Virus record (IMG/VR): IMGVR_UViG_3300031576_000109
Location: 1-44,156 of that record
Origin: a virus
DNA: 44,156 nt
Strand: one strand, 5' to 3'
The notes beneath the pieces were generated by a model. The model ran no database searches, was not told the origin of the DNA, and saw only the letters and a program-made list of their open reading frames with translations. Shown piece after piece: positions 2,817 to 44,156 of this stretch (within the stretch, counting starts at the first letter, position 1; every line of letters begins with the position of its first letter). Both the position numbers and the translations under genes were made by a program.

Positions 2817-2993
2817 CTAGCGCGCAATCACTACGGCCTTGTGTACGTCGATCAGCCGAACCGAAACCTTGGCCTGCGGATCTCCGATTCGATCCCGTAC
2901 CCAATCAACGAGCATCTTCCGAAGCCTCTCACCGTAGATGCCTTGATCGAGGTACGGCTTCAAGTCAACCTCTTGTTTGAAGGACGGTTTCAT
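2817..2993 (-). CDS. Hypothetical protein, 58 aa
   Basis: A complete small ORF, MKPSFKQEVDLKPYLDQG..., from ATG 2993 to TAG 2817. It fills the space between two coupled genes almost exactly. The composition is soluble and mixed charge (RLRKMLVDWVRDRIGD, then a beta-like VSVRLIDVHKAVVIAR tail). No family recognised. The ribosome site (GGGTAGG) is moderate. The call rests on packing and coding-like composition. Confidence 0.55.
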   Translation of the reverse strand: MKPSFKQEVDLKPYLDQGIYGERLRKMLVDWVRDRIGDPQAKVSVRLIDVHKAVVIAR

Positions 2994-2997
2994 AGAC

Positions 2998-3192
2998 CTA
3001 CCCTTTCGTCGCTCTCTTCAAACCTCCGGTCTTGTGACGAACCATCGTCCCATCACGCGGGCGCTGCTGGGTCGGCCTCCACGCCTCGGACTTGTCTGCG
3101 TAGAACGGGATCACTGCGGCGTCACCGTTCTTCCAGCGATGCCACCAGTACCAACCATCGAACGGGCTGTACTGAAGTGTGTTCTCGTGCAT
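2998..3192 (-). CDS. Hypothetical Trp/Tyr-rich protein, 64 aa
   Basis: ATG 3192, TAG stop at 2998, 4 bp before the next start. The N-terminal half is aromatic (SPFDGWYWWHRWKNGD), the C-terminal half basic (RPRDGTMVRHKTGGLKRATKG). Possibly nucleic-acid binding from charge alone. No recognised family. Confidence 0.55.
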   Translation of the reverse strand: MHENTLQYSPFDGWYWWHRWKNGDAAVIPFYADKSEAWRPTQQRPRDGTMVRHKTGGLKRATKG

Positions 3193-3218
3193 CGTTCACC
3201 CATTCTGACGTTCACGCT

Positions 3219-3578
3219 TCAGAAGCATGCCTCGCAACCGCAGTTCCCCGCGTGGTCGTTCTTGTTGTTCGGCTTCACCGTATCGGGGTGTTCTTTCCCG
3301 CATAGACACGCAATCTGCACGGACTCCTTTGGCTCGTGACTGTGGCCGTCGAGGAAAGGCGACCCAGTGCAGAAGATGTGATCCAGGTCTGCGGCCAACG
3401 CCGGGAACTTCTTACTGCATAGCATCGCGTAAACTTCCAACGCGGGACGGGCGAACTCGTCATGTGTCAGGTCCAGCACGAAGTACCTGCACTTCTCGTG
3501 CTTGCCCCCCGGCTCACTGGAGCCGTTCGTCCGCTTGACGGTGAACTTCTCGTACAGCCCACGTTCAGTGTCGTTCAT
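3219..3578 (-). CDS. Conserved-type phage hypothetical protein, 119 aa
   Basis: MNDTERGLYEKFTVKRTNG... The segment SEPGGKHEKCRYFVLDLTHDEFARPAL (residues 21-47) matches a pattern I recognise from many phage accessory proteins of unknown function, with a conserved K-H-x-x-C-x-Y-F-V-L-D-L-x-H-D core. The C-terminus ends in a Cys cluster (CLCG...CGCEAC). No enzymatic role is known to me. It stands alone with short gaps on both sides. Confidence 0.65.
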   Translation of the reverse strand: MNDTERGLYEKFTVKRTNGSSEPGGKHEKCRYFVLDLTHDEFARPALEVYAMLCSKKFPALAADLDHIFCTGSPFLDGHSHEPKESVQIACLCGKEHPDTVKPNNKNDHAGNCGCEACF

Positions 3579-3579
3579 C

Positions 3580-3780
3580 TCAAAGCCCCCACATTCTCAA
3601 GGGCTTCTCTGGAAAGAATCTCTGGGGAAGAAGGCCGGGCTCTTTAGCGCATCGCGCACAGAAAAGAAGCCTCATTCGGCACTCGAAGCCATCGTCAACG
3701 GGTTCGCTCATCTCGAATAGCCAGCACTTCTTGATTTGGTTGCATCGCTGGCAAAGCCCGTCAGTTTTCTTGCGCTTCAC
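3580..3780 (-). CDS. Small zinc-finger protein, 66 aa
   Basis: Starts at GTG 3780, which overlaps the stop of the tyrosine recombinase (GTGA), so it is likely coupled to that gene. Begins KRKKTDGLCQRCNQIKKCW, with CxxC and a second pair CARC near residue 42: a four-Cys zinc knuckle. Because it is coupled to the recombinase it could be a recombination accessory (excisionase-like), but that is inference only. Confidence 0.6.
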   Translation of the reverse strand: MKRKKTDGLCQRCNQIKKCWLFEMSEPVDDGFECRMRLLFCARCAKEPGLLPQRFFPEKPLRMWGL

Positions 3781-4433
3781 AGCACCGTCTCCATCCCGGC
3801 CAACGTCTCGGCCATGTCGGTGACGTGAGCGTACCTCTCGGTCATTTGGCTGGACGAGTGACCGGCAAAGACTTGGGCCTTGCGGATGTCCTTCGTGGCC
3901 TTGTAGATGGCCGTGATTGCGCCGTGCCGCGTGGAGTGAATCCCCCGACCGTACTTGTAGAGGCCGATCTCGGTCAGCAGCTCCCGCCAGCGCCGCTGCA
4001 CGTTCCGAATCGAAGCGTGTCCTCCGATGCAGAATTGCTCCGTCCCCATCTCCTCGCCGCGCTTGCCCGTGTGCTCGATGAAGCACGGGGCCTGCTCGCC
4101 GGGGAACAGGAAGCCGTCCTCTACGCGCTCCGCAAGGGCCTTGATGAGATTGTGGATGCCGGGATTGACTTCGATGGGCTCGGGGTGCAGGTACTTCTTC
4201 TTGCGACGGATGACCAGGAGCCGAGTCGGGAGAACATCAGCCCTCTCCAGGTGCAGAATCTCCGACACGCGCAGGCCCGTGTTGATCCCGATGGCGATGA
4301 CCTCGTACATGGGTGTGAGCCAGTAGGGGTCGTACTCGCCCAGCTCGCGGCACTTGGCGAGGATGATCCTGAACTCCTCCGGGGTGACGATCTTGGAATC
4401 GGACAGCGACCAGTCGGCGTGAGACTTGGGCAT
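3777..4433 (-). CDS. Tyrosine recombinase, catalytic domain only
   Basis: 218 residues, starting at ATG 4433 behind GGAGGG. All catalytic positions of the phage-integrase family are visible: Arg55 (TGLRVSE), Lys around 79 (RRKKKYLH), His166 and Arg169 (HSTRHG), His192 (GHSSS) and Tyr201 (ERYAHV). The N-terminal arm/core-binding (SAM-like) domain is almost absent, only about 15 residues precede the catalytic fold. The frame is open to an upstream ATG (4502), which would add a hydrophobic stretch resembling a signal peptide (FSLGLLFSRAYA). I prefer 4433 because of its ribosome site. The gene lies in the leftward operon, far from the plus-strand integrase at 13741, so it may serve in dimer resolution, excision or cassette recombination and not primary integration. 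Confidence 0.85.
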   Translation of the reverse strand: MPKSHADWSLSDSKIVTPEEFRIILAKCRELGEYDPYWLTPMYEVIAIGINTGLRVSEILHLERADVLPTRLLVIRRKKKYLHPEPIEVNPGIHNLIKALAERVEDGFLFPGEQAPCFIEHTGKRGEEMGTEQFCIGGHASIRNVQRRWRELLTEIGLYKYGRGIHSTRHGAITAIYKATKDIRKAQVFAGHSSSQMTERYAHVTDMAETLAGMETVL

Positions 4434-4573
4434 GGGTTGACCCTCCGCGTATGCACGCGAGAAGAGTAAACCCAAAGAGAAGCATACCCAGATCACGTTC
4501 ATCGGTCAAGCCTCAGCGTCATACCCAAAGGTCAGTCACTCACCACGGCCGCTGTAATTCATCGAATCAAAAT
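4434..4573. other. Short gap upstream of the tyrosine recombinase
   Basis: 140 bp with only micro-ORFs on the minus strand (MNYSGRGE, MTLRLDR), the second overlapping an in-frame upstream ATG of the recombinase as ATGA. They could be leader peptides, but I see no further support. The A/T content is higher than in neighbouring genes and no clear promoter is seen. Confidence 0.35.
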
Positions 4574-4798
4574 CTACGCCTGAACCTCTCTCCCTACGCA
4601 GGAATCCAACAGCACCCTCCCGACGTATTTCAGGTCGCGCCATCCCGCCAGCCGCCTGCCCCCGGGCCAGCTATCGACCAGCGTCACCCGGACCGTCGTA
4701 CTCGTGGGCGTCAAGTAGAGGAGTTCGCGGCCGGCCGCTTTCGCCATTGAGGGACTGAACCATCCATAACCGATATTCTGGGCGCGAGACATCATCAT
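4574..4798 (-). CDS. Hypothetical basic protein, 74 aa
   Basis: Begins MMMSRAQNIGYGWF at ATG 4798, which overlaps the stop of the zinc-ribbon gene before it (ATGA). Three consecutive ATG codons make the exact start ambiguous. Mixed beta-like sequence with SMAKAAGRELLYLTPTSTTVRVTL and a basic GGRRLAGWRDLKYVGR part. No family recognised. Confidence 0.55.
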   Translation of the reverse strand: MMMSRAQNIGYGWFSPSMAKAAGRELLYLTPTSTTVRVTLVDSWPGGRRLAGWRDLKYVGRVLLDSCVGREVQA

Positions 4799-5058
4799 TC
4801 CGCCTCCCCGCGCCGCCCGTTCCACGAGGCCACGGCGTCCAACCGAGAGTCCGCCACGGGCCCCGAGGCGTGACAAGGACCGGGACAATGGACCCAGAAG
4901 ATGACACCCTTCATGTCGAGAGACTTGGCCAGCCGCCCGTTCACGGATCCGCAGAAGGGGCAGGCACCGAGGACCACAGGTTCGGCCACTGGAGGCTCCG
5001 ATCGGGGATAGCCCGCGCTCGCCAGGGAGTCATAGGGAGGGGGAGTCGGGTCGGGCAT
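4795..5058 (-). CDS. Lar-like zinc-ribbon protein
   Basis: 87 residues with a Pro-rich N-terminus, then ACPFCGSVNGRL, a second Cys pair (HCPGPCHASGP) and the closing DAVASWNGR. The order CPFCG...C...GP...A..WN.R is the Lar/restriction-alleviation-type zinc ribbon, as in the gene at 1842-2075. It starts immediately after the previous stop (TAGATG). Function inferred only at family level. Confidence 0.7.
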   Translation of the reverse strand: MPDPTPPPYDSLASAGYPRSEPPVAEPVVLGACPFCGSVNGRLAKSLDMKGVIFWVHCPGPCHASGPVADSRLDAVASWNGRRGEAE

Positions 5059-6679: not shown

Positions 6680-7645
6680 TCAGGCCTCCGCCCTCCGGGG
6701 AAACTCGCTCCACTCGCGGCCATCGAGGGCCCGCCCCGCCTCCTTCTTGCCGACCCGGGCAAAACCCATCCCGGGCCCGCCGTGGTCGCCCGCCTCACCC
6801 GGACCCGAGGTCCCGTCCGGCCAGAGAAAGGAGTAGTGGTCCTCCGAAACCTCAACGACCTCGACCCGGAGCCCCGGCGCGGGCCCGGCCATCGGCGCCC
6901 ACACGCCCCATTGCTTGAAGAAGAAGGGGACGGCGGCAGCCTGGCACTGGTCGCGGAGCGTCCGGAGCCAGGCCGGATGGGTCGGCCGCGCCCCGGCGCC
7001 GCTCTCGCCGCCGGCGATGACCCAGTCGACCCGCGGGCGGGCCTCGCCGTAGGCGGCCTCCGCCTTCACGCCCTCCCAGCCCTCCCCGCGCGCGGCGATC
7101 GGGAGCCATCGCTCGAGACTCGTCGGCCCGAGGAGGGGCTCGACCGAAAGGAAGCGCCCGCGGGCGGGGACCTCAAGGAGGAGCGGGACCCGCCGGTCCG
7201 CCCATTCCTGGTTCTCGACCGTGGTCCCGTACCAGACGTTGGCCGGCGGGCTCTCGAGCCAGGGCTGGGGGACCATGAGCATGACCAGCTCGGGCCGCTT
7301 CGTGAGGAGGAGCCAGTCGAGGTGGGGCGTCGCGTCGATCAGGTCCCAGAGCCGGTCCCGCCAGGCGACGAGCTCCTCGCGGTCCTCGAAGACGTCGGCC
7401 ATGGAGGCGCAGAAGACGCGGCGGCGGACGCCCGCGGAGCGGGCCTCGTCGTCCCACTTCACCGGCCCGAACCAGTGGGCCGCCGCGAAGGTCCGCCGCG
7501 GCGCGGCGTCGCCCCAGACGTCGTAGCCCACCCGATGGGAGAAGGCCTCGGCGTAGCAGTTCGTGCAGGCGGGGGAGACCTTCGTGCAGCCCCACCAGGG
7601 GTTGAAGGTATGGTCCGTCCACTCGATGCCCGTCCGCTTACCCAA
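6680..7645 (-). CDS. DUF5131 (phage Gp37/Gp68) three-Cys protein
   Basis: 321 residues. A TTG start at 7645 is chosen because GGAGG lies 6 nt upstream and it overlaps the HD gene stop. The N-terminus IEWTDHTFNPWWGCTKVSPACTNCYAE has Cys20, Cys27 and Cys30 (CX6CX2C), the hallmark of the DUF5131/Gp37-Gp68 family, related to radical-SAM enzymes. Later conserved blocks are FCASMADVFED, DWLLLTKRPE, WYGTTVENQ, RFLSVEPLLGP, WVIAGGESGAGARP and PFFFKQWG. The chemistry is unknown. In other genomes such genes often sit beside a tcmP partner (three-Cys-motif partner); I do not see one here. Confidence 0.85.
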   Translation of the reverse strand: MGKRTGIEWTDHTFNPWWGCTKVSPACTNCYAEAFSHRVGYDVWGDAAPRRTFAAAHWFGPVKWDDEARSAGVRRRVFCASMADVFEDREELVAWRDRLWDLIDATPHLDWLLLTKRPELVMLMVPQPWLESPPANVWYGTTVENQEWADRRVPLLLEVPARGRFLSVEPLLGPTSLERWLPIAARGEGWEGVKAEAAYGEARPRVDWVIAGGESGAGARPTHPAWLRTLRDQCQAAAVPFFFKQWGVWAPMAGPAPGLRVEVVEVSEDHYSFLWPDGTSGPGEAGDHGGPGMGFARVGKKEAGRALDGREWSEFPRRAEA

Positions 7646-8309
7646 GGCGCACCTCCGGGAGGAGGTCCCCGAGGACCACCTCCCAGCCCTCGAAGGCGCT
7701 CGCGAGGTCCCCGCGCCGCACCTCGGAGAGGATCTCCTCGACGCCCACGACCGCGGGCGCCGCCTCCGGGGCGAGGCAGCTCGAGGGGTCAAAGAAGGGC
7801 GAGCGGCGGAGCGCCTCCATGAGGTCGACCTCGTGGCGCGCCGGCGCGGGGAACTCCGCCAGGTCCTCGATCTCCGTGTAAGCGCGCGCGAAGTTCGGGA
7901 GCTGGAGGACGACGGCCTCCGCGATGAGCGCCCGCTCGTCCATGGCCTTGACCATGGCCAAGTCGATCGAGGACTCATCGAGGTGAAAGGCGTCCCGAAT
8001 CCGCCGGTCGAGCTCCGCCTGCCGGGCCCTGAGCCCGTCCGGCTTCCACGGCCGGACCACCTCCCCGGTCACCACCTCGTGGGCGTCATGGAGGAGTCCC
8101 CAGGCCCACGTGGGGAGGTCCGACGCACGCAGGCGGACGTGGTGGATGGCCTTGAGGACCAGCCCCGCCACGAGAACCGAGTGGGCGAGAAGCGGGCACC
8201 AGACCGCGCCGCCATAGCGCGTGATGCGCGCCATCTGGACCGCGATGTCCCGCGGCGAGGGGACGAGGTCGTTGTCGGGAGCGACCCGGATGCCGGTATA
8301 GGTGATCAT
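7638..8309 (-). CDS. HD-domain phosphohydrolase (YfbR/5'-nucleotidase-like)
   Basis: 223 residues from ATG 8309. The HD metal site is visible: His43 (LLAHSVLVA), His74-Asp75 (WGLLHDAHEVVTGEV), with a distal acidic position expected in the later helices. HDAHE and the length fit the YfbR-like deoxyribonucleoside 5'-monophosphatase group, which phages use to adjust nucleotide pools. It overlaps both neighbours (ATGA upstream, 8 bp downstream). The C-terminal 40 residues extend beyond the usual domain. Exact substrate unknown. Confidence 0.75.
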   Translation of the reverse strand: MITYTGIRVAPDNDLVPSPRDIAVQMARITRYGGAVWCPLLAHSVLVAGLVLKAIHHVRLRASDLPTWAWGLLHDAHEVVTGEVVRPWKPDGLRARQAELDRRIRDAFHLDESSIDLAMVKAMDERALIAEAVVLQLPNFARAYTEIEDLAEFPAPARHEVDLMEALRRSPFFDPSSCLAPEAAPAVVGVEEILSEVRRGDLASAFEGWEVVLGDLLPEVRLG

Positions 8310-9837: not shown

Positions 9838-11808
9838 CTATTTCTTCTTCCCGCGCCCCGCCGGAGGCCGGGCCTTCGCCTGCGTGACGGACTTCAGTTT
9901 GTTCGCGGGTTTCGACTTACCCCCCCCTGCGGGCTTTTTCGGTTTCACGGCCGCCTTCGCATGGTCGCCCAGGCGGCCGAGCTCATCGACCGTCACGCAG
10001 GTCGTGCACAGGCCGTGGTTGGTCGCGCGGTCGAGGACCGCCCACTCGGCGCCCGCGAGGCCCTCGACCTCGTGCTTCTTGCAGGCCTCGTCCTTCGTGC
10101 AGCCGCAGCGGCCGCACGTGGGCTTCGTGGGCTTGCCCTTCGTCTTCCCGAGCGCCTCGGGCCCAAGGAGCTCCACGACCCCCGCCATGCCGGCGCCCCG
10201 GCCCGCGGCGATGCGCGCGTCCTGCGCATCCCACTTCTTCTTGAGCGAGAGCTTCACCTGGCCGACGGGGACCTTCCATCGCTTGCAGGCCTGGAGGACC
10301 GCGTGCTCGTCGACGTCGTCGTAGCCGTCGCTCATGGTGAAACCGAGGACGAACCGGACGAGGTCGCGCGCCTTGAGCTTCTTCATGGCCGCCTCATGGG
10401 AGCCGTAGCTCCTGAACTGAGGATAGAGCCGGGTGACTTCCGCGGGGATGTCGCCGACAGAGAGATAGGCGGCGAGGGCCTGAAACTCGGGAAAGCCGGG
10501 CCGCGAGGGGGCCTTGTCGAGCGCCGCGCGGAAGAGGGCGACGGTCAGCTCGCCGTCGCGCCGGTTCTTGCGCTCGCGGTCTTCGGCGTCCCGGCGTTCC
10601 CGCTCCAACTGGGCGGGGGACTTCCCGGCGCCAGACGGGCGGGCGGGGCTCGAATAGGTAAGGCGGGGATTGTGGACGCTGCAGCCGGCGGCGCCGCACA
10701 CGGGGAGCGTCTTCCCCCGGTCGCTCCCGTCGACCACGAGGCCGACCACCTGGCTCCCGCACTTCTTCTTCCCGAGGCCATGCCAGTCGCCCTTGTACTT
10801 CACGCCCTCCTGGGCCTCATCGACCTTCCATCTCTCTTCGGTGGAGATGAAGGCGGCCTTCTGGCCGGCCTCCTCGAGGGCCTTCTTCTCGCGGGCGAAC
10901 CAGGCCTCGAGCTTCTCCCTGAAGCAGGCCCGATCCGTGCAGGTCGTGTCCTTCCGGACCTCGGGGAAGAGGCCCGGGCAGTTTCCCGTCCGCTTCGGGC
11001 AGCTCCGGCACGGGCCGGCCTTCGGCAGGAGCGACGCGTCGTCCGTGTCCCACGGGGCGCGCTTGAGGTCGGCGTGGACCTCGTCGGCGACCCACTTCGC
11101 GAGGGACCGGACCGGGAGGACGACCTTCTGCGGCGCGGCGCCCGTCCGCTCGATCTCGTCATAGAGGTCGACGTGGGCGGCGCGGTCGCCGCCCTCGTTC
11201 GTCGAGACGAACGCGTCGGGAAGGCAACGGTGGAGTGCCGCCTTCTGGTCTTCCGGGGAGAGGCGCGCGATGAGGATGGCGTGGCCCGCCGTGATCTCGT
11301 CCTTGAGGAACGCGTCCTTGGCCGGCGCGGCGAGGTCCGCGAGCTTGAGGCGCTGGTAGACGTACGAGGCCGACTTCCCGACCTTCCGGGCGAGGGCGGC
11401 GACCTCGTAGCCCGCCTTCTCCATGAGCTGGCGGTAGCCCTCGCCCTCCTCCATCGGGTGGACGTCCGCGCGCTGGAGGTTCTCGATGACCTGGACCTCG
11501 AGGGCCTGCTTGTCCGTGAGCTCGCGGACGAGCAGGGGCACGTCCCGGAGCCCGACCTTCTTCGCCGCCCGGTAGCGGCGCGCGCCGGCGACGACCTCGA
11601 AGCCGCCGTTCACGGGACGCGCCACGATGGGGACGATCATCCCCTTCTCGCGGATGGACGCCTCGAGGTCCGCCTGGGCCTGGGGGGGGAACGTCCTCCG
11701 GGGGTTCGTCCTGGACTCGTGGAGCTTCTCGAGGGCCACGACTTTAAAGACCTGGTCCTCCGGCTCGAGGACCTCCCGCGGGGGGGCCGCCGGCTCCGGG
11801 TTCGCCAT
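9838..11808 (-). CDS. ParB/Spo0J-like protein with zinc modules
   Basis: 656 residues. The N-terminal ParB domain spans about 22-120 with GARRYRA (75-81) in place of the GERRxRA box and IENLQRADVHPMEEGEGY (108-125). The HTH lies at 134-160 (YEVAALARKVGKSASYVYQRLKL). A Cys-rich region follows (CRSCPKRTGNCPGLF...TCTDRACF), then a long charged linker and a C-terminal zinc module. Large ParB-like proteins of this layout are known from plasmids and phages and may segregate plasmid-like prophages, regulate transcription or act on DNA. Newer work on ParB shows CTP binding by GERRxRA, so CTPase activity is plausible. No ParA is found in the window and no canonical parS was noticed. Confidence 0.85.
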   Translation of the reverse strand: MANPEPAAPPREVLEPEDQVFKVVALEKLHESRTNPRRTFPPQAQADLEASIREKGMIVPIVARPVNGGFEVVAGARRYRAAKKVGLRDVPLLVRELTDKQALEVQVIENLQRADVHPMEEGEGYRQLMEKAGYEVAALARKVGKSASYVYQRLKLADLAAPAKDAFLKDEITAGHAILIARLSPEDQKAALHRCLPDAFVSTNEGGDRAAHVDLYDEIERTGAAPQKVVLPVRSLAKWVADEVHADLKRAPWDTDDASLLPKAGPCRSCPKRTGNCPGLFPEVRKDTTCTDRACFREKLEAWFAREKKALEEAGQKAAFISTEERWKVDEAQEGVKYKGDWHGLGKKKCGSQVVGLVVDGSDRGKTLPVCGAAGCSVHNPRLTYSSPARPSGAGKSPAQLERERRDAEDRERKNRRDGELTVALFRAALDKAPSRPGFPEFQALAAYLSVGDIPAEVTRLYPQFRSYGSHEAAMKKLKARDLVRFVLGFTMSDGYDDVDEHAVLQACKRWKVPVGQVKLSLKKKWDAQDARIAAGRGAGMAGVVELLGPEALGKTKGKPTKPTCGRCGCTKDEACKKHEVEGLAGAEWAVLDRATNHGLCTTCVTVDELGRLGDHAKAAVKPKKPAGGGKSKPANKLKSVTQAKARPPAGRGKKK

Positions 11809-13687: not shown

Positions 13688-13706
13688 GCCCCCACATTGT
13701 GGGGGC
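13688..13706. promoter_or_regulatory. 19-bp perfect palindrome upstream of the integrase
   Basis: GCCCCCACA-T-TGTGGGGGC, perfect 9-bp arms around one base, 35 bp before the preferred integrase start. It could be a repressor operator, an integrase arm/accessory site or a hairpin. It overlaps the most upstream possible integrase start codon (GTG 13699), an argument for a later start. Confidence 0.5.
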
Positions 13707-13740
13707 TTGGGTGGCGGATTCCCGGTCACACACGGGGTCG

Positions 13741-14631
13741 GTGTCGGTCGCGGTCCACGGCGAGCAATGGCTGACCGAGCTCGCCAACCATGGCCGCGAG
13801 CCGTGGACGGTCAAGACCTACCGCGACCGCCTCCGGTGGCTCTCCGAATGGCTCACCTCCCTCGGCCTCGGCGTGGCCGAGGTCACCCCGGGCGGGGTCG
13901 AGCAGTGGCTCTCCGACCAGCGGGAGCGGGGCCTCGCCCCGAAGACGCGCGCCGCGAACCTGTCGGTCGTCCGCGGCTTCTTCGCCTGGCTCCACCTCTG
14001 CGGCTATCTTGACCGGGACCCCCTCGCCGGCGTCGGCCCCATCCGGGTCCCCCGGCGGCTCCCCCGGGACCTCCCGGTGGAGGAGGTCCTCCAGGTCCTG
14101 GCGGCCGCGCGGACCCCCCGCGAGCGGGTGATCGTGGAACTTCTCTACGGGAGCGGGGTCCGGCTCGGCGAGCTCCTCTCCGCGACCGTCTCGGGGACCA
14201 CCCTCGCGCCCGCGGGCGGGCCGACGGGCGGGAGGATCCTCGTCCGGGGGAAGGGCGGCCACGAGCGGCGCCCCCCGCTCTCCCGCCCCGCAGCCCTCGC
14301 GATCCGGACGTGGCTCCCGGAGCGCATGCGCCTCGCGGCGGCCCTGCCGGCGCCGACGGATCTGCTCCTCCTCGGCCGCCAGGGGCCGCTCAAGCGAAGC
14401 CGCGTCCGCGGGATCCTCTATGCCGTCGCCGCCCGGACCGCCCTCGACCGGCGGGTCTACCCCCACCTCCTCCGGGTCTGCTTTGCCACCCATCTCCTCG
14501 AGGGCGGGGCCGACCTCCGCACGGTCCAGGAGCTCCTCGGCCACGCCAACCTGGCCACCACGCAGCTCTACACGGCCGTCGCGGACGGCCGCGCCGTGGC
14601 CGAGTACGGCCGGACCCACCCGCGGGCATGA
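13741..14631 (+). CDS. int: XerC/D-like tyrosine integrase
   Basis: 296 residues from the GTG at 13741. Earlier in-frame GTG codons (13699, 13711) exist, but the chosen one places the SAM-like domain at the usual distance and leaves the palindrome untranslated. The N-terminal core-binding domain is residues 6-95. Catalytic residues: Arg141 (SGVRLGE), Lys171 (GKGGHE), His242 and Arg245 (HLLRVCFATHLLEGG), His268 (GHANL) and Tyr277 (QLYTAV). Family knowledge: site-specific integration or excision of the prophage. It runs opposite to nearly all other genes and lies directly beside the tRNA-like attP candidate. A second, shorter tyrosine recombinase is at 3777-4433. Confidence 0.9.
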   Translation: MSVAVHGEQWLTELANHGREPWTVKTYRDRLRWLSEWLTSLGLGVAEVTPGGVEQWLSDQRERGLAPKTRAANLSVVRGFFAWLHLCGYLDRDPLAGVGPIRVPRRLPRDLPVEEVLQVLAAARTPRERVIVELLYGSGVRLGELLSATVSGTTLAPAGGPTGGRILVRGKGGHERRPPLSRPAALAIRTWLPERMRLAAALPAPTDLLLLGRQGPLKRSRVRGILYAVAARTALDRRVYPHLLRVCFATHLLEGGADLRTVQELLGHANLATTQLYTAVADGRAVAEYGRTHPRA

Positions 14632-15648: not shown

Positions 15649-15671
15649 CGGCTACGTCCCGGACGTAGCCG
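15649..15671. terminator. 23-bp palindrome covering the holin stop codon
   Basis: CGGCTACGTCC and GGACGTAGCCG are perfect 11-bp arms around a single base. The holin TAG stop lies inside the palindrome. In RNA it would form a stable hairpin at the 3' end of the late message, probably contributing to termination or message stability. Confidence 0.5.
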
Positions 15672-15897
15672 ATGGCGAAGCTGGGGAAGACGGGGGCGAC
15701 GCCGCGGCCTTCTTCTCGCCCCAGGCGCTGGCGGCATCGATGGCCGACTCGCCCAGGATGAAGGCGGACATGACGCCGGCGATGAGCATCACGGTGTCCG
15801 GCTGGAGCCCGAGCTTGAGGGCGTCGTTCAGCCCGGCGAGAAGCGCGACGGCGATCGCCGAGAAGTACTTCCGGCTCTTGAGCGCGGTCGGCAGCAT
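15652..15897 (-). CDS. Putative holin
   Basis: 81 residues, MLPTALKSRKYFSAIAVALLAG... Two hydrophobic segments (about 12-32 and 36-56) joined by a short loop (LKLGLQPDT), followed by a polar Ala/Ser/Pro tail. The layout and RKYFSAIA...LNDALKLGL...ILGESAIDAASAWG resemble two-TM phage holins. It is the last gene of the late operon and overlaps the u-spanin-like gene (TGATG). Holins form holes that trigger lysis. Confidence 0.65.
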   Translation of the reverse strand: MLPTALKSRKYFSAIAVALLAGLNDALKLGLQPDTVMLIAGVMSAFILGESAIDAASAWGEKKAAASPPSSPASPSATSGT

Positions 15898-16361: not shown

Positions 16362-16661
16362 CTACTTCATTCCCTTCTCGATCCGGTCGAGCTGCTTGAA
16401 CATCGCCCGGTCGCGTTCGTCCCGCACGGCGATGGCCTGCGAGAGCGTCCCCGCGAGGGCCTGCGTGGCGTGGGTATTGGCCTCGATGGCCCCGGTGTTG
16501 GCCCGCATGTTCTCGAGCGCGTTGTCCACGAGCGTCCGGTTCTGCGCGATCAACGTGCGGATCAGGCTCTTGACCAGCCAGACCATGAGGCCGCCGAGCG
16601 TCCCGCCCCCCACGAACGCCGTCACGACGGCCAGGAGGACCGTTTTCCACGTCTCGCTCAT
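16362..16661 (-). CDS. Membrane-anchored coiled-coil protein of the lysis block
   Basis: 99 residues with one N-terminal membrane segment (VLLAVVTAFVGGGTLGGLMVWLV, residues 8-30) and a long helical cytoplasmic or periplasmic part (TLVDNALENMRANTGAIEANT...). Position between QueA-like gene and the spanin suggests a lysis accessory such as an antiholin, second holin or i-spanin. No further evidence for any one of these. Confidence 0.55.
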   Translation of the reverse strand: MSETWKTVLLAVVTAFVGGGTLGGLMVWLVKSLIRTLIAQNRTLVDNALENMRANTGAIEANTHATQALAGTLSQAIAVRDERDRAMFKQLDRIEKGMK

Positions 16662-16673
16662 GGGGATTTCCCC

Positions 16674-17642
16674 TCACACGATCAGCATCGAGTCGCCATA
16701 GTCGGCAAAGCGGTATCTCTGGGCGATGGCCTCCCGGTAGGCCCGCCGGACGTTCTCGGTCCCCCCAAAGGCCGCCGTCATGGCGAGCATCTTTTCCCGG
16801 GGGAAGTGGAAGTTCGTGAGGAAGGCCGCGGTCGCCTTGAATTCGAAGCCTTCGTAGACGAGGAGGGTGGAGCGCCCCTCGGCCTGGCCCGTCCGGGCCC
16901 AGGTTTCGAGCGCCTTCACCACCGTGGTCCCGACCGCGAGGACCTTCCCCGCGGGGGGGTCCGCGATCCGGTAGGGCTCCGCCGGCGAGAAGGGCTCGTG
17001 CTGTTCGACGTAGGCCGTCTCGATGCGCCGGAGGCCGTCAATGTCGATGTGGAGGGTGAGCTCCCGCAGATCGAGCTTCCCGAGCGTGTCGGGGTCCAGG
17101 CTTACGCCGGCCGTGGGCGAGGCCAGCGTCCCCACCTCCCGCGCGTAGAGCGGCTCGTACCACGGATATTCCGCCGGGTCCTTCGGGCGCCGGACCCAGC
17201 TCAGGACGGGGAGATGGCCCACCATCTCGAGGTCGGCCGGCTCCTCGAACCCGAGGAGGACCCGCTGCGGCCCCAGGACCTCGAGGATTTCCACCTTGCT
17301 CCCGTCCGCCTCGAGATACCAGGCCCGCCGGTCCTCGATGTAGCCCGTCGCGGCGGCGAGGGTGGCCTCCCAGGTCCGGTCGTCCCGCTTCCTCTTGAGC
17401 CACGCCTCGGCCCGATGGCCCGTGTCCCGCCAGAGGACCACGACGCCGCGGTAGAGCTTCGAGTTGTTCACCCAGACCTGGAGGCCCCGGGCGTACTCTG
17501 GAAGGTCCGCCAGCCTCCGATGCTCGCACTTCCCGGTCGTCCGGTCGAGGACCAGCATCCGGGACTTGCCGCGGAAGGGGAGCGGCCCGCCCGTCACGAG
17601 GCCGGGGGGCAGCGAGAAGTCGAGGTCCGAGGTCGGTGTCAT
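16674..17642 (-). CDS. queA: QueA-like S-adenosylmethionine:tRNA ribosyltransferase-isomerase
   Basis: 322 residues from ATG 17642 (ATGA overlap with the 208-aa gene). Bacterial QueA transfers and isomerises the ribosyl group of SAM onto preQ1 in tRNA, giving epoxyqueuosine. Matching blocks: N-terminal DLDFSLPPGLV and RMLVLDRTTGKCEHRRLADLPEY; SPTAGVSLD (175-183) for the family APTAGLHFD; LTLHIDIDGL (195-204) for TLHVGAGTF; AVGTTVVKALE (236-246); FLTNFHFPREKML (274-286); AFGG (291-294); YRFADYGDSMLI (310-321). The family's glycine-rich VGAGTF loop is changed, so the substrate may differ. No other queuosine or 7-deazaguanine gene (folE, queC-F, tgt, dpdA) is seen. It is slightly shorter than the roughly 350-aa bacterial enzymes. 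Confidence 0.85.
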   Translation of the reverse strand: MTPTSDLDFSLPPGLVTGGPLPFRGKSRMLVLDRTTGKCEHRRLADLPEYARGLQVWVNNSKLYRGVVVLWRDTGHRAEAWLKRKRDDRTWEATLAAATGYIEDRRAWYLEADGSKVEILEVLGPQRVLLGFEEPADLEMVGHLPVLSWVRRPKDPAEYPWYEPLYAREVGTLASPTAGVSLDPDTLGKLDLRELTLHIDIDGLRRIETAYVEQHEPFSPAEPYRIADPPAGKVLAVGTTVVKALETWARTGQAEGRSTLLVYEGFEFKATAAFLTNFHFPREKMLAMTAAFGGTENVRRAYREAIAQRYRFADYGDSMLIV

Positions 17643-18265
17643 GGCTTTTCCAGCTTCCCCGTCTCTTCCGTGGCGACGGCGGGGGCCTCGGCCTCGTCGT
17701 CGATGAGGCGCCGGACTTTGTACTCGTCCAGGCCGAGGTTCTTCCGGATCATGGCCACCTTCCCCAAGGCCGCCGCGAGGGGCCAGATCCAGCGGTCGGC
17801 CTCTTCCGGCGATGCCGTCGGCAGTTCGGTGAGAACCACGTCGCCCACCTTGCGGCCGCCCTCGATTTTTTTCGCCGGCGAGAGGGCCATCTCCAGGCAC
17901 CAGACGGCCCCGGACATCTCCTCGTCGGAGAGCTCGAGGGTCTGCGTCCGCACGCGCGCCGTCTCCAGCAACCGCAACTTCTGCATCGCGCCGGTCTCGG
18001 TATCGAACTGCACCTCCCAGTCGTCCTCCGCGCCGAAGAGGAGGGCGTATTTCCCCCCGTGCTGGCGCGCGTAGTAGGACTCGCGCTTCAGGGCCTGGAG
18101 GAGCGCGTAGGTCTCGAACTGCGCGAACCTGCGCTGGGTGGCGTCATAGACCGTGTCGCCCACTCTCGATGGCAGTTCGAAGCCGGCCGCGAGCTGCATC
18201 AGATAATTCGCCTGCTCCACGGTCAACTGCACCCGGTACTTCTTCCGGTTCTGTGACGTAGCCAT
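17639..18265 (-). CDS. Hypothetical protein, 208 aa
   Basis: MATSQNRKKYRVQLTVEQANYL..., soluble, with mixed alpha/beta character. No signal peptide or membrane segment. Distinct parts include QALKRESYYARQHGGKYALLFGAEDDWEVQFDTETG and a helical C-terminus (WIWPLAAALGKVAMIRKNLGLDEYKVRRLIDDE). Its stop overlaps the QueA-like start, so the two are likely translated together and may cooperate. Not an endolysin by any motif I recognise. Confidence 0.6.
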   Translation of the reverse strand: MATSQNRKKYRVQLTVEQANYLMQLAAGFELPSRVGDTVYDATQRRFAQFETYALLQALKRESYYARQHGGKYALLFGAEDDWEVQFDTETGAMQKLRLLETARVRTQTLELSDEEMSGAVWCLEMALSPAKKIEGGRKVGDVVLTELPTASPEEADRWIWPLAAALGKVAMIRKNLGLDEYKVRRLIDDEAEAPAVATEETGKLEKP

Positions 18266-18285: not shown

Positions 18286-18507
18286 CTAAAGCCCGAAGTC
18301 CGCCTTGACCTTCGCGTTCGCCGCATCGTAGGCGACCTTCTTCGCCGCCTCCACTTCGTATCGCTGGACCGCGTTGGTCACATCGGCTTTGAGGATACGC
18401 TCGGCCTCTTCCCTGGGGCTCCGGCCCGGCGGCGGCTGCTGCCCGCCGAGAAGGGCGGTAATCGCCCGGGTCTCTTGATCTTGAGTCGCAAATGTGATTT
18501 GCAGCAT
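18286..18507 (-). CDS. Hypothetical small protein, 73 aa
   Basis: MLQITFATQDQETRAITALL followed by a Pro-rich turn and a helix (EEAERILKADVTNAVQRYEVEAAKKVAYDAA). It follows the glycine-rich adhesin by 8 bp. Such small helical proteins often follow fibre genes in phages as assembly accessories, but nothing proves this here. Confidence 0.55.
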   Translation of the reverse strand: MLQITFATQDQETRAITALLGGQQPPPGRSPREEAERILKADVTNAVQRYEVEAAKKVAYDAANAKVKADFGL

Positions 18508-18515
18508 TGTACCTC

Positions 18516-19421
18516 CTAGAAGTAGGCCGTTACCACTACCAGTCCGGCGACACCATCTCCTCCCGCGCCCGATTCTCCTGCCCCATCGGTAGTGCCCCCG
18601 CCTCCGCCCCCGCCTCCGCCGTATTTACTACCACTCCCCCCGTCCCCGCCATTGTTGCCTGCTGTGTTTTCTCCACCCCCACCGCCGCCTCCTGCGCCTG
18701 CATAATTAGTTTTACTGGGATTGGGGGCTCCGCCATCTCCTCCTGGTGTGCCTCCGTTAGCTCCACCCGTCAAGGCCTCCCCCAAGGTCTGCGCCGTTCC
18801 GCCACTCCCACCGATGCCCTCGGCGTTTCCAGTAGTTACACCTCCCCCTCCACCCCCGGCCCCAGTGCCGTTGACGCTCCCTCCACCTTGTGCTCCCCCA
18901 CCAGCTCCGCTCGAACCCGCACCGCCCGCCCCACCAGTCGCGGTAAATCCAGTCCCCGCCGTCCCCGCCGTTCCGGTAGAGGTCCCTCCACCTTGTCCTC
19001 CCCCACCAGCTGAGGCCGTCAGTCGCAGCGATCCAGACGCGGATTGACCGAATGAGCTGTTGCTACCGGCGTTGCCGTTGTTCCCGTTGGTCGAGTCTAC
19101 GGTCTGGGCGCTGGCCCCCGTCCCGCCTCCCCCTACGGTGATCGTCATCGTGTCGGGGATGTCCCCCGCCGCAAACCAGTGATCCGATATTCCGCCCCCG
19201 CCTCCTCCGCCTCCGCCCGATCTTCCGGTTCCCGCAAGCCCTTTCCTGCCACTGCCACCCCCGCCGCCCCCGCCGATCAGCCTCACTCGAAAGAGCCTAG
19301 CCCCATAGGGCTTGGTCCATCGATAAGTTCCGGGTTTGTCAAAGACCTCAATCTTTATTCGAGGACGTGCACCCTCTGAGTCGATCGGAGCGATAGAATA
19401 GGGGCCTGGATCGCCAGCCAT
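18516..19421 (-). CDS. Glycine-rich tail-tip adhesin
   Basis: 301 residues. The N-terminal beta segment (RIKIEVFDKPGTYRWTKPYGARLFRVRLIGGGG) is followed by about 230 residues dominated by runs of Gly with Ala, Ser, Thr and Asn, ending in the hydrophobic GLVVVTAYF. This is the phage glycine-rich domain in which polyglycine-type strands form a receptor-binding sandwich, as in gp38-like adhesins, where variable loops between glycine blocks decide host range. It sits directly after the fibre genes. Its DNA is very repetitive (GGN codons), so recombination and assembly errors are possible. Confidence 0.8.
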   Translation of the reverse strand: MAGDPGPYSIAPIDSEGARPRIKIEVFDKPGTYRWTKPYGARLFRVRLIGGGGGGGSGRKGLAGTGRSGGGGGGGGGISDHWFAAGDIPDTMTITVGGGGTGASAQTVDSTNGNNGNAGSNSSFGQSASGSLRLTASAGGGGQGGGTSTGTAGTAGTGFTATGGAGGAGSSGAGGGAQGGGSVNGTGAGGGGGGVTTGNAEGIGGSGGTAQTLGEALTGGANGGTPGGDGGAPNPSKTNYAGAGGGGGGGENTAGNNGGDGGSGSKYGGGGGGGGGTTDGAGESGAGGDGVAGLVVVTAYF

Positions 19422-40586: not shown

Positions 40587-41258
40587 TTATCTTCTGCCCT
40601 CTCCAGGGCCCAGGCGGTTCGTATAAGCGGCCGTCCCGTAATGCGTGAGCGCGACTTCGCGGGTGGCCCAGATGCGGGCGCCCCGTTCGCGGGCCATCCG
40701 CGAGAAGTGCCAATCCTCTGGCAAGACGCCGACGTGCGGCCCGTCGCTGGTCCCCCAGACAATCTTGTCCTGGATGGCGAACCAGACCTTGTCGGCCCCG
40801 GGCCACGACAGGTCGACGAGCATGAGCCCGGTATTAACGAGGAGGTCTGGGGCCGTGAACGTCGGATCGTAAGCCTCGTGGATCTCGGCGAGCGGCAGCC
40901 GGCGGGGCCCGCCGGGCAGGTCGAAGGCCGTGCTCGTGTCCCCGCTCCCGTCCTTGATGGGCGCAACCGCCGAGAGGATGTCGGCCTCGTGGGCGCGCAT
41001 GAGGCGGAGCATCTTGTCGAGCCAGCGGGCCTCGGGCACGATGTCCGCGTGGACCATGGCGAAGTGGGTGACGCCGGGCCTCGATCGGACGGCGTTCACG
41101 TAGAGCTGGTTGAACCCGTACGCGAGGAGCGACGATCGGCAGTGCTGGACCGAAAACCGGTGCTCCTTCGTCGCCTCAAGGAGCGCCATGGCGAGGCCGA
41201 CCTCGCATCGGCCATCGTGGGTCGGAACGCTGATGAGGACGTTCGCCTTTTCGATCAC
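40587..41258 (-). CDS. GT-A family glycosyltransferase
   Basis: 223 residues from GTG 41258 with AGGAGG upstream (GTGA overlap with the methyltransferase). ANVLISVPTHDGRCEV at the N-terminus is the nucleotide-sugar binding start; HFAMVHADIVPEARWLDKML gives a DxD-like metal site (HAD); FTAPDLLVNTGLMLVDL and the terminal PEDWHFSRMARERGARIWATREVALTHYG match the catalytic E-D...H motif of phage GT2-like enzymes. The substrate may be modified phage DNA bases, virion protein or host surface sugar. Neighbouring methyltransferase suggests a joint modification. Confidence 0.75.
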   Translation of the reverse strand: MIEKANVLISVPTHDGRCEVGLAMALLEATKEHRFSVQHCRSSLLAYGFNQLYVNAVRSRPGVTHFAMVHADIVPEARWLDKMLRLMRAHEADILSAVAPIKDGSGDTSTAFDLPGGPRRLPLAEIHEAYDPTFTAPDLLVNTGLMLVDLSWPGADKVWFAIQDKIVWGTSDGPHVGVLPEDWHFSRMARERGARIWATREVALTHYGTAAYTNRLGPGEGRR

Positions 41259-41818
41259 GACACCCTCCTGAGAACGGAAAGACTGTTGGCCCGGGCCTGG
41301 TGCTCCCAGCGGCCGGACCCGAGGAGGTCCTCCACCACCGCGATTACCCCGGGATAGGCGTACTGGCAGTCGTGGAAGGCCGCGAAGCCGCCGGCAGGGA
41401 CGTGCGGCTCGAAGTGCTCGAAGTCCCGCCGCACATTCGCCTCGTCATGCAGGCCGTCGATGAAGAGGAGTCCAATGGGTCCCCAGGACCACTCGACCTC
41501 GTAGGACCTCCGTCGAAAGGGGAATACTTCGAGCAGGAGGCGGGCCCGCACGAGGGTGTCCTGGAACTCCTCGAAGGTGGAGGGGCCGCCGGCGCCGCCG
41601 GTGACCTCGCCCTCGTGCGGGTCGACCGCGAAGACGCGGCGGCCGGCCACGACCTTGGCCGCGGCGCCGAGAAGGCACGTGCTCCGGCCCTTCCAGCTGC
41701 CGACCTCGACGATGGCGCCGGAAGAGGCGAGGGCGGCGTCGAAGAGCAGCGCCCCCTCCTCGCGCGTGAACCAGCCTTCAACGGTCTCCATGAAGTCCAG
41801 GGCCCGGTCCTTGTCCAT
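41255..41818 (-). CDS. Class I SAM-dependent methyltransferase
   Basis: 187 residues from ATG 41818 behind GGGGGAGG. Motif I VEVGSWKGRST (about 36-46), acidic end of strand 2 FAVDPHEG, and the post-motif LLFIDGLHDEANVRRDFEHFEPHVPAGGFAAFHDC (residues about 118-152), which is characteristic for the Methyltransf_24 family of small-molecule/sugar O-methyltransferases. It overlaps the glycosyltransferase, so the pair may build or modify a methylated glycan. No DNA methyltransferase motif (DPPY, PCQ) is present. Confidence 0.8.
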   Translation of the reverse strand: MDKDRALDFMETVEGWFTREEGALLFDAALASSGAIVEVGSWKGRSTCLLGAAAKVVAGRRVFAVDPHEGEVTGGAGGPSTFEEFQDTLVRARLLLEVFPFRRRSYEVEWSWGPIGLLFIDGLHDEANVRRDFEHFEPHVPAGGFAAFHDCQYAYPGVIAVVEDLLGSGRWEHQARANSLSVLRRVS

Positions 41819-41840: not shown

Positions 41841-43805
41841 TCAATACTGCGTCCGGATCCTGCTCTCCGGGTTCGGGGTCGCCGCGGCCGCCGCGGCCGG
41901 CGCCGGCCGCTTCGGCGCCGGCGGGCGCGGGATGAGCTTGATCCCGAGCATGTCGGCCGCGGCGCGCGCCCCCACCAGGCAGTCGAGGTAGTGGTTCGCC
42001 CGGGACTCCACGACCCAGTAGACGATCGGCTCCTTCCCGACCGGCTGCTCGACGTGGCGGCGCTCGGCGGTCACCTGCTGGGCGAACTTCCTCATCGCGT
42101 CGTCCGTCTTCGGCCAATTAAAGAGGGTGATCGAGCCGGGGCTCCCGACCGGCGCCGTGAAGCCGTCGTGGATCACGCCCTTCCAGTAGTCGGAATGGAC
42201 CTCGACGAGCTGGATCCCCTGGGCCTGGACCGTCACGGTCCATTCGTTCCCGACTTGGCGCCCCGGGCCTGACGCCCGGGGCGCGCGCCAGTGCTCGCGC
42301 TTGCTCGTGCCGAAGCCCTTCGAGGCGAAGTAGCGGCCCTGGCCGCTCTCTCGGACGAACTCGTAGACGACCTCGTGCTCGTAGCCGGAGTCGACGAGGA
42401 CGAGGTCCGGGCGGCGGCCGAAGAGCCAGCCCGGGGCGATCCGGCTGTCGCGGAAGCCCCGGAGCGCCGCGAGGACGGCGAGGGGGTCGTGCCCCTTGGT
42501 CCGGTCCCCGGGGACGTCGATCTTGCCAAAGTCGGCCACGTGGCCCGAGGCGTCGGCCTGCCAGGCGACGAGCGCCCACCAGCAGGCGTAGCTCCCGACG
42601 TCGATGAAGAGGGTCACCTTCTCGGCGCGCTCGGGCATGACACCCCGCGCGTGGCCCGTCATCTTCCGGAGGACTTGGTCGGCCTCGAGCCTCCTGAAGT
42701 CGAGCATCTCGCCCGAGTAGGGCCGGGCCCAGACGAACTGCATGAGGCCGCGCCTCACCTCGTCGTCGGCATTGTCGGCCTTGAACTCCTTCTCGGCGAT
42801 GTCGGCCTGGGTGAGGAAGCTCGAGGCCCCGGCGGTCCAGCGGAGGCCGAAGGTGTTGGTCGCCGGCGGCTCCCCGACCACCTGGCCCTCTGCGTCCACC
42901 GACTGGGTCTTGGCCACGATCCGGGGCGCGCGGAGCGCGGCGCGCCGGTCGCTCTCGGTCCAGGGCCTCCCGCAGCCCGGGCAGACGAACCTCCCGTGGG
43001 CCCGGGCCTCGACGACGTCCGGGGCGCCCTGCCAGCCCTGGAAGTGCTCGCGCTCGAGGGGCGCAGGTTTGGCGCAGGCCGGGCAGTCGAAGTAGAGCGC
43101 CCCCCCCGTCCCGAACTCCATCACCTCCTGGTGGATGCTGCCCTTCTCGATCGACATCGTGCATTCGCCGTAGGTCCGCGCGTATTCGCCATAGGAGGAC
43201 GTCCGGGCCTCGATCTGGGCGACGGGGCCCGCCTCCCGCGAGGCCTTGCCCGGGCGGTCCATCTTGTCCATCTCGGTCATGATGACGACGCGTGATGGGT
43301 AGACCGACCGCTGGTGGTCCCCGCCGCCGGCGCCCATGAAGCGCGCGATCGCGCCGTTCCCGAAACGGAGGGCGAGCCCACGGCCCCCGCGGGAGCCGGC
43401 GCCGGCGCGCGGAAGGAACTCCTCATAGCGGCTCGACCGGATGGAGGGGAGGAGCCGGTCGTGGTAGATCGACTGGGCGATCTCCGCCGTGGGGGCCCCG
43501 AAGATCACGCTCTCGCCGATCTCGAAGAGGTGGTACATGGCCGGGATTATGTAGCCGAGCAGCGTCTTCCCGCTCTGGGTGGGGCCCGAGAGGAAGAACC
43601 GCCGGTAGCGCGGCCGGTCGTACTCCTCAAGGACGAGCCGCGAGAACGGCATGAAGTCGGAGCGGAAGCGGAGCCCCTGGCGGGGGCCGTCGGGGAGCAC
43701 GACCTCCCGTTCGGCGAACTCGAGGAAGGGCCGCCGGCGGGCGGGCTTGAGGATCTGGAAGGCCGTGCGCCGGAAGTCGAGGACCAGGGCGGGGGCGGCG
43801 CTCAT
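41841..43805 (-). CDS. terL: Terminase large subunit (GpA family)
   Basis: 654 residues from ATG 43805 (ATGA overlap with terS). ATPase: Walker A SGPTQSGKT (73-81), acidic Walker B region VVIMTEMD (173-180). A zinc ribbon, CPAC...CPGCG, lies at about 241-279, as in lambda gpA relatives. Nuclease domain: TLFIDVGSYACWW, LVLVDSGYEHEVVYEF. The enzyme cuts and packages DNA through the portal. Length agrees with lambda gpA (641 aa). The Ala/Pro-rich C-terminus (APKRPAPAAAAAATPNPES) may bind the portal. Confidence 0.95.
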   Translation of the reverse strand: MSAAPALVLDFRRTAFQILKPARRRPFLEFAEREVVLPDGPRQGLRFRSDFMPFSRLVLEEYDRPRYRRFFLSGPTQSGKTLLGYIIPAMYHLFEIGESVIFGAPTAEIAQSIYHDRLLPSIRSSRYEEFLPRAGAGSRGGRGLALRFGNGAIARFMGAGGGDHQRSVYPSRVVIMTEMDKMDRPGKASREAGPVAQIEARTSSYGEYARTYGECTMSIEKGSIHQEVMEFGTGGALYFDCPACAKPAPLEREHFQGWQGAPDVVEARAHGRFVCPGCGRPWTESDRRAALRAPRIVAKTQSVDAEGQVVGEPPATNTFGLRWTAGASSFLTQADIAEKEFKADNADDEVRRGLMQFVWARPYSGEMLDFRRLEADQVLRKMTGHARGVMPERAEKVTLFIDVGSYACWWALVAWQADASGHVADFGKIDVPGDRTKGHDPLAVLAALRGFRDSRIAPGWLFGRRPDLVLVDSGYEHEVVYEFVRESGQGRYFASKGFGTSKREHWRAPRASGPGRQVGNEWTVTVQAQGIQLVEVHSDYWKGVIHDGFTAPVGSPGSITLFNWPKTDDAMRKFAQQVTAERRHVEQPVGKEPIVYWVVESRANHYLDCLVGARAAADMLGIKLIPRPPAPKRPAPAAAAAATPNPESRIRTQY

Positions 43806-44156
43806 GATGTCGCGACCTCCGATGCGGCGGCGGCCGGCGCCGGCGGGGCCGGGAGCTCCGGCGCAGCCGCGGCCGCGGGCGCGTCCGGGAGGGGCGCGGG
43901 GAACCGGAGTTCGGTCGCCCGCTCCGCGCGCTCGACCGCCTCCCGGATCGCGTCCGTCACGCCCGGCCCGTGGGCCCGCCCCACGGCCTCGAGCTCGGCC
44001 CGGAGCGATCCGAAGATGACCTGCAACTCCTCGCGCGCCTTCTCGATCGGGAGGAGCCGGCCCTCGGCGACGTCGTTCTTCCGCTTCGCCTCCCGATACC
44101 GCTCGTTCCTCCACTTCTCCAGGGCCTCGCTCGTCTGGCCGTCGTCGAGGAGGGCG
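43802..44156 (-). CDS. terS: Terminase small subunit, C-terminal part (continues at 1-369)
   Basis: The C-terminal 75 codons plus the in-frame part within the terminal repeat. The segment KAREELQVIFGSLRAELEAVGRAHGP across the join is uninterrupted. The C-terminal part is helical and acidic (DAIREAVERAERATEL), followed by an Ala/Pro tail that may bind TerL. Stop TGA overlaps the terL ATG. The full protein has 198 residues. Confidence 0.85.
   Translation of the reverse strand, partial: ALLDDGQTSEALEKWRNERYREAKRKNDVAEGRLLPIEKAREELQVIFGSLRAELEAVGRAHGPGVTDAIREAVERAERATELRFPAPLPDAPAAAAAPELPAPPAPAAAASEVATS
44030..44156. repeat. Direct terminal repeat, right copy
   Basis: Identical to 1-127. See the left copy: a circular or permuted molecule opened in terS. 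Confidence 0.95.

Follow-up and report, generated by a model that had tools for sequence, protein, structure and literature searches.

A strongly diverged QueA-family gene inside a phage genome, possibly retooled for another acceptor

A real, stand-alone and strongly diverged gene of the QueA family was found inside a phage genome, in the IMG/VR virus record IMGVR_UViG_3300031576_000109, whose complete stretch of 44,156 bases is called the window below. QueA normally helps to build the tRNA base queuosine. In its reaction, the ribosyl part of AdoMet is transferred to preQ1-tRNA with the release of adenine and methionine, while no substrate-bound structure is available and how the substrates bind is still to be established (PMC10491745). 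According to a survey of 2019, QueA, QueG and QueH are encoded by no phage or virus (PMC6884629), a statement repeated by a paper of 2021 (PMC8265664). The gene described here, termed P0002, belongs to the QueA family and lies within a phage, and it bears a mark that points to its capture from a single actinobacterial clade. Judging from the sequence, the chances are about even that an actinobacterial queA was captured as phage cargo and retooled for related AdoMet chemistry on another acceptor, with a pseudoenzyme as a further possibility.

Family, fold and genomic setting of P0002

The open reading frame of P0002 runs on the minus strand from an ATG at 17642 to a stop at 16674 (322 codons), and its third-position GC of 0.93 is like that of the neighbouring phage genes. 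The Pfam profile Queuosine_synth (PF02547) matches residues 4-321, that is, the full length, with 183.7 bits (E 6.4e-54) against a gathering cut-off of 25 bits, which bears out the family assignment made in the initial annotation. Three solved QueAs match P0002 by sequence at 4e-35 to 8e-42. The AlphaFold2 model (pLDDT 77) displays the QueA fold with its inserted beta-barrel and aligns with 1WDI, 1VKY and 1YY3 at Z 21.6-23.3 over 260-269 residues, while the next best unrelated structure reaches Z 7.7; the rmsd of 7-9 A to the solved QueAs suggests domain shifts. No viral structure in BFVD matched the model at E <= 0.001. With the curated equivalog profiles, P0002 scored 188.2 bits for NCBIfam NF001140 (cut-off 324) and 154.3 bits for TIGR00113 (cut-off 267), and lies below the threshold of both.

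According to PHROG profiles, the minus strand carries, from 44 kb down, terminase, portal, protease, scaffold and head genes, followed by unassigned genes in synteny with a sister phage (G001), and then by a glycine-rich tail protein, a 73-aa ORF, the 208-aa protein P0003, the QueA-like ORF and a holin-containing lysis module, past which an integrase lies on the opposite strand (Table 1). The ORF coordinates, the PHROG neighbours and the ATGA at which the P0002 start overlaps the P0003 stop confirm what had been proposed earlier, namely a stand-alone QueA-family gene in the late (tail and lysis) region that is coupled to a 208-aa orphan. The tyrosine integrase implies that the phage is presumably temperate, and the linear class given to the record by IMG/VR means that the phage genome may be incomplete. 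The 73-aa protein has no family match in PHROG and Pfam, and the 99-aa protein downstream of P0002 has a very weak PHROG 'hemolysin' match (E 0.096).

Table 1. Coordinates of the features of the window considered in the text
Feature	Position	Strand	Basis or remark
QueA-family protein P0002, 322 aa, divergent	16674..17642	-	Pfam, NCBIfam, fold match
PTAG-VSL	17097..17117	-	PTAG kept, invariant LHF replaced, His -> Ser181
TLH-IDIDGL loop	17031..17057	-	canonical TLHVGxxTF; nearest host clade TLHVGLDTF; preceded by 5-residue deletion
TNFH motif, kept	16806..16817	-	alignment
P0003, 208-aa orphan, overlapping the QueA-like ORF via ATGA	17639..18265	-	ORF; family searches negative
73-aa protein, upstream, same gene run	18286..18507	-	ORF
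Glycine-rich tail protein	18516..19421	-	PHROG tail families 7e-13; Pfam Gly_rich_2
99-aa protein immediately downstream of P0002, probable lysis module	16362..16661	-	position only
Holin	15652..15897	-	phrog_9987 lysis/holin 9e-9
Tyrosine integrase	13699..14631	+	Pfam Phage_integrase 2.5e-29; counterpart in sister phage G001
Terminase large subunit, at the upstream end of the run of structural genes on this strand	41841..44114	-	phrog_15 1.5e-60

The sister phage is the nearest phage found and shares the gene order, and its terminase large subunit (locus L066) is 71% identical. It has a counterpart of neither P0002 nor P0003; two other small proteins, dissimilar to P0003, take their place, so that the pair behaves like cargo. 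P0003 itself found no relative in any of the profile, PHROG, phage and genome searches made, apart from a weak sub-threshold Pfam match to NusA_N (E 0.004), and its single-sequence structure model is unreliable (pLDDT 44). A 269-aa ORF in the tail region of the sister phage (24587-25396 of G001, in L071) looks glycosyltransferase-like by eye and is a possible other cargo gene.

The earlier statement that the genome holds no other queuosine or 7-deazaguanine gene is upheld within this linear and perhaps incomplete record: the TGT profile, positive in 14 of 14 control genomes, found no match, Pfam scans of 49 ORFs yielded no queuosine, preQ0 or deazaguanine gene, and neither QueG nor QueH was found. 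The neighbours of P0002 are phage genes, with neither tgt nor another Q gene beside it. These results bear on the proposal that P0002 modifies the phage DNA by attaching a queuosine-like ribosyl group to a deazaguanine base, or uses preQ1-like bases there. Incorporation of 7-deazaguanines into DNA is known from phages (PMC6884629), and their systems (DpdA, FolE, QueC/D/E, QueF) resemble the present case in bringing queuosine-related chemistry into a phage; however, their DpdA/TGT-like and preQ0 genes were not found in the record, which may be a fragment, and those systems carry no QueA (PMC6884629). Moreover, P0002 occupies a late position, and dQ was not found in the phages tested (PMC6884629). 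A DNA-modifying role thus finds no support and is regarded as highly improbable.

Origin of the gene

P0002 sits inside the phage genome and is not host contamination, and the other QueA matches in viral collections differ from it in kind. A looser scan of IMG/VR gave 56 QueAs, 54 of which are no more than 1.3 kb away from where the stored stretch ends, and the QueAs with a readable loop are canonical in that motif. The two interior ones (L017 and L021) adjoin recombinase or integrase genes and were read as host genes at provirus borders. The QueA matches in INPHARED are mostly unannotated fragments, and an annotated Acinetobacter 'phage' contig turned out to be host chromosome with queA, tgt, yajC and secD; the other 'phage' queA matches examined look like host DNA. 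Queries with the whole of P0002, with its C-terminal half and with the TNFHFPR[ED] codon pattern revealed no close relative in IMG/VR, and patterns derived from P0002 revealed none in 84,980 genomes. The gene is carried by a single phage, and any maintenance across phages would be conjectural. As a separate observation, a host queA lies at or beside the end of many IMG/VR proviruses (in L017, a serine recombinase is beside queA), and queA may be a recurrent integration neighbourhood.

Host QueAs were sought in 396 Actinomycetota genomes and then in 299 genomes of one actinobacterial class, referred to here as the G118 class. The best identities of P0002, 40-44% over the full length with 42-44% at the top, are to QueAs of this class, most of whose genes have tgt within the stored flank. 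The spacing between PTAG and TLH is 19 residues in P0002 and in 30 of the 33 class members measured, while it is 24 in the other three and in all 49 remaining QueAs; among these 83 sequences, the corresponding 5-residue deletion of P0002 is common only to G118-class QueAs. In addition, the loop of the class reads VGLDTF, and its Asp is the second Asp of IDIDGL in P0002. From the shared spacing and the shared Asp, we infer that the gene was probably captured from an actinobacterial host of this class.

The phylogeny does not decide the matter, as the branch of P0002 is very long (3.16 changes per column). Its best placement was beside five QueA paralogs encoded on plasmids (L003, L008, L076, L077 and L078), with a support of 33/91 and possible long-branch attraction, while joining P0002 to the host class was not rejected (p-AU 0.448). 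The spacing of 19 residues, versus 24 in the plasmid paralogs, speaks against membership in their clade. When these paralogs were left out, P0002 fell among Actinomycetota, the phylum dominating the sample. The major head protein of the phage had no match in 149 genomes of the G118 class, so that it is only the QueA gene that points to the host.

Conserved positions and possible activity

All QueA blocks listed in the initial annotation were recovered, namely PTAG (176-179), AVGTT (236-240), TNFH (276-279), AFGG (291-294) and YGDSMLI. The replacement of the conserved loop after TLH by IDIDGL (TLH-IDIDGL, 196-204), which had been singled out there, is likewise real, but it is one of many changes and is milder when compared with the nearest host QueAs. 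Further changes include R67 to V, LPPYI to LPVLSWV, YQT to YEP, R243 to K and S314 to D. When the equivalog motif set (LPPYI, YQT, PTAGLHF, TLHVGxxTF, MHxE and GDA) was examined, PTAG, TLH and GD were kept, and LPPYI, YQT, LHF, VGxxTF, MH and A318 were changed. The conserved polar residues R24, R28, N59, Y162, H215, T239, T240, E246, T276, N277, H279, Y302, Y310 and D317 are kept, while those lost include R67, Q163, T164, H181, T203 and S314.

Across 78 canonical QueAs, a sample rich in Actinomycetota, 76 columns are at least 93% conserved and were taken as family-conserved. P0002 retains 43 of them, in comparison with 64-76 in canonical QueAs and 38-48 in the five plasmid paralogs; one of the losses, that of the Glu in MHSE, probably stems from the alignment (SPAEPYRI aligned with MHAERYSV), and without it the tally would be 44. 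P0002 and the paralogs have lost overlapping sets of columns (Fisher p 1.4e-5). Family-conserved columns that most of the five paralogs also keep were defined as core, and those that the paralogs lost as canonical-only. Although sites differ in tolerance and only five paralogs define the core, P0002 keeps 35 of 44 core columns versus 79 of 229 elsewhere (p 3e-8), the latter background being the match to the nearest host QueA over all other columns, while the 8 of 31 canonical-only columns kept are no better than this background. The two tiers indicate that the core is still under constraint, which looks relaxed for the canonical-only columns. The core may reflect folding or structure rather than catalysis, and a pseudoenzyme would then fit as well. 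P0002 has also lost some columns that the paralogs keep (H181, R243, P264 and F182).

The retention of the core bears directly on whether P0002 is the relic of a captured gene that is being lost by neutral decay, an outcome for which the initial annotation had allowed. Such decay would account for the very long branch and the many invariant positions lost, yet when a host gene was left to decay neutrally to the same identity, an open frame survived in 11 of 1000 simulations; the frame of P0002 is intact, as are its ATGA coupling and its phage-like third-position GC, and the core columns are retained at a rate well beyond the background. A relic is therefore very improbable.

The canonical-only columns, in turn, weigh on the earlier suggestion that P0002 restores queuosine in host tRNA. 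As a working and fast-evolving oQ synthase, it would draw on the TGT and preQ1 supply of the host and raise tRNA queuosine in late translation. That its closest relatives are host QueAs mostly near tgt, that the family match is full-length and the fold intact, and that R243K, V199I and F182L are mild changes would all agree with this role, and the Glu of MHSE may persist as E222 after a 2-residue insertion, as one reading of the alignment has it. However, the canonical-only columns are kept no better than background, the invariant H181, G200, T203 and R67 are lost together with the LPPYI and YQT motifs, and the scores fall far below the curated cut-offs; no QueG or QueH was found in the record to finish the pathway either, though that step could be provided by the host. 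An ordinary oQ synthase is thus disfavoured and appears unlikely.

The many conserved polar residues lost, as well as the position next to tail genes and the coupling to an orphan protein, would also fit a pseudoenzyme that has kept the fold and binding surfaces and lost catalysis, and that binds tRNA, AdoMet or P0003 or serves as a minor virion part. The 14 conserved polar residues listed above as kept, R24 to D317, are nevertheless more than a purely structural role needs, and we consider this explanation doubtful.

According to the retooling hypothesis, a host queA would have been taken up as a cargo gene into the tail-fibre/lysis interval. The fold and the residues common to canonical QueAs and plasmid paralogs, which conservation suggests to be an AdoMet-binding and catalytic core, would have been kept, while the canonical-only features, presumed by the same token to serve preQ1-tRNA recognition, would have been shed. 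The polar residues kept (R24, N59, H215, etc.) would then point to kept chemistry, and those lost (R67, H181, etc.) to a changed acceptor site. The protein is predicted to cleave AdoMet and to transfer the ribosyl part to an acceptor other than preQ1-tRNA, and its position suggests production late in infection. A more specific version, in which a phage QueA-fold AdoMet ribosyltransferase would modify another RNA, a phage component or a small molecule with a ribosyl or epoxycyclopentane-like group, P0003 being a possible partner, is put forward tentatively as one of the less likely outcomes. If P0002 turned AdoMet over, it would also resemble by description the phage SAM lyases (T3 SAMase and relatives) in the use of AdoMet; a SAM-lyase-like anti-restriction role was set aside, as there is no evidence for it and the gene lies late.

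Comparison with other QueA-type proteins and minor observations

Canonical QueA, described by PF02547, TIGR00113 and NF001140, is the tRNA preQ1(34) S-adenosylmethionine ribosyltransferase-isomerase. P0002 is similar to it in fold, in full-length alignment and in the core columns kept, whereas it scores far below the equivalog cut-offs, is changed in 33 of the 76 family-conserved columns, resides in a phage and is not beside tgt. Its nearest counterparts are found among the short QueAs typical of the G118 class, which share both the highest identity and the 5-residue deletion. The five plasmid paralogs show a similar loss of canonical columns at overlapping positions and likewise have no tgt neighbour in their annotated loci, but they are devoid of the 5-residue deletion, the phage possesses no gene cluster similar to theirs, and the kinship to P0002 in the tree is weak. 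Set beside P0002, they allow QueA to be divided, in a way open to test, into a core common to all and a part special to canonical members. Should P0002 indeed act on a different acceptor, the range of reactions in which AdoMet donates its ribosyl part would be widened.

The gene clusters around some plasmid paralogs contain either thymidylate synthase, PqqD and NUDIX genes or radical SAM genes, and this suggests that enzymes with the QueA fold can be adapted to other acceptors. On a Streptococcus salivarius plasmid (L076) and a Geobacillus plasmid (L077), the paralog is accompanied by genes for thymidylate synthase, a PqqD-like protein, a NUDIX protein, a phosphotransferase and an AAA ATPase, and these clusters look like small-molecule or peptide biosynthesis. 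On a Sinorhizobium plasmid (L008), the paralog at 2923-3948 follows an NTF2-like gene and precedes two radical SAM genes.

Several other genes on the minus strand of the window were recorded in passing. A Methyltransf_24 protein of 187 aa (41255-41818; PHROG 'DNA methyltransferase', 1.6e-14) lies between terminase and portal. A 656-aa protein (9838-11808), which has a relative in the sister phage, combines ParB N-terminal and HTH domains with a long extra C-terminal part. An ORF at 4795-5058, also with a counterpart in the sister phage, matches the restriction alleviation protein Lar below threshold (25.4 bits against a cut-off of 28.6), and a second phage-integrase catalytic domain (61 bits) occurs at 3777-4502, besides the integrase listed in Table 1. 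Finally, a DUF5131 protein (6680-7978, 276 bits), whose coding start is probably internal near residue 112-114, carries a CxxxxxxCxxCY motif that by eye resembles radical SAM proteins, and it also matches the PADLOC candidate families PDC-M41B and PDC-M30B.
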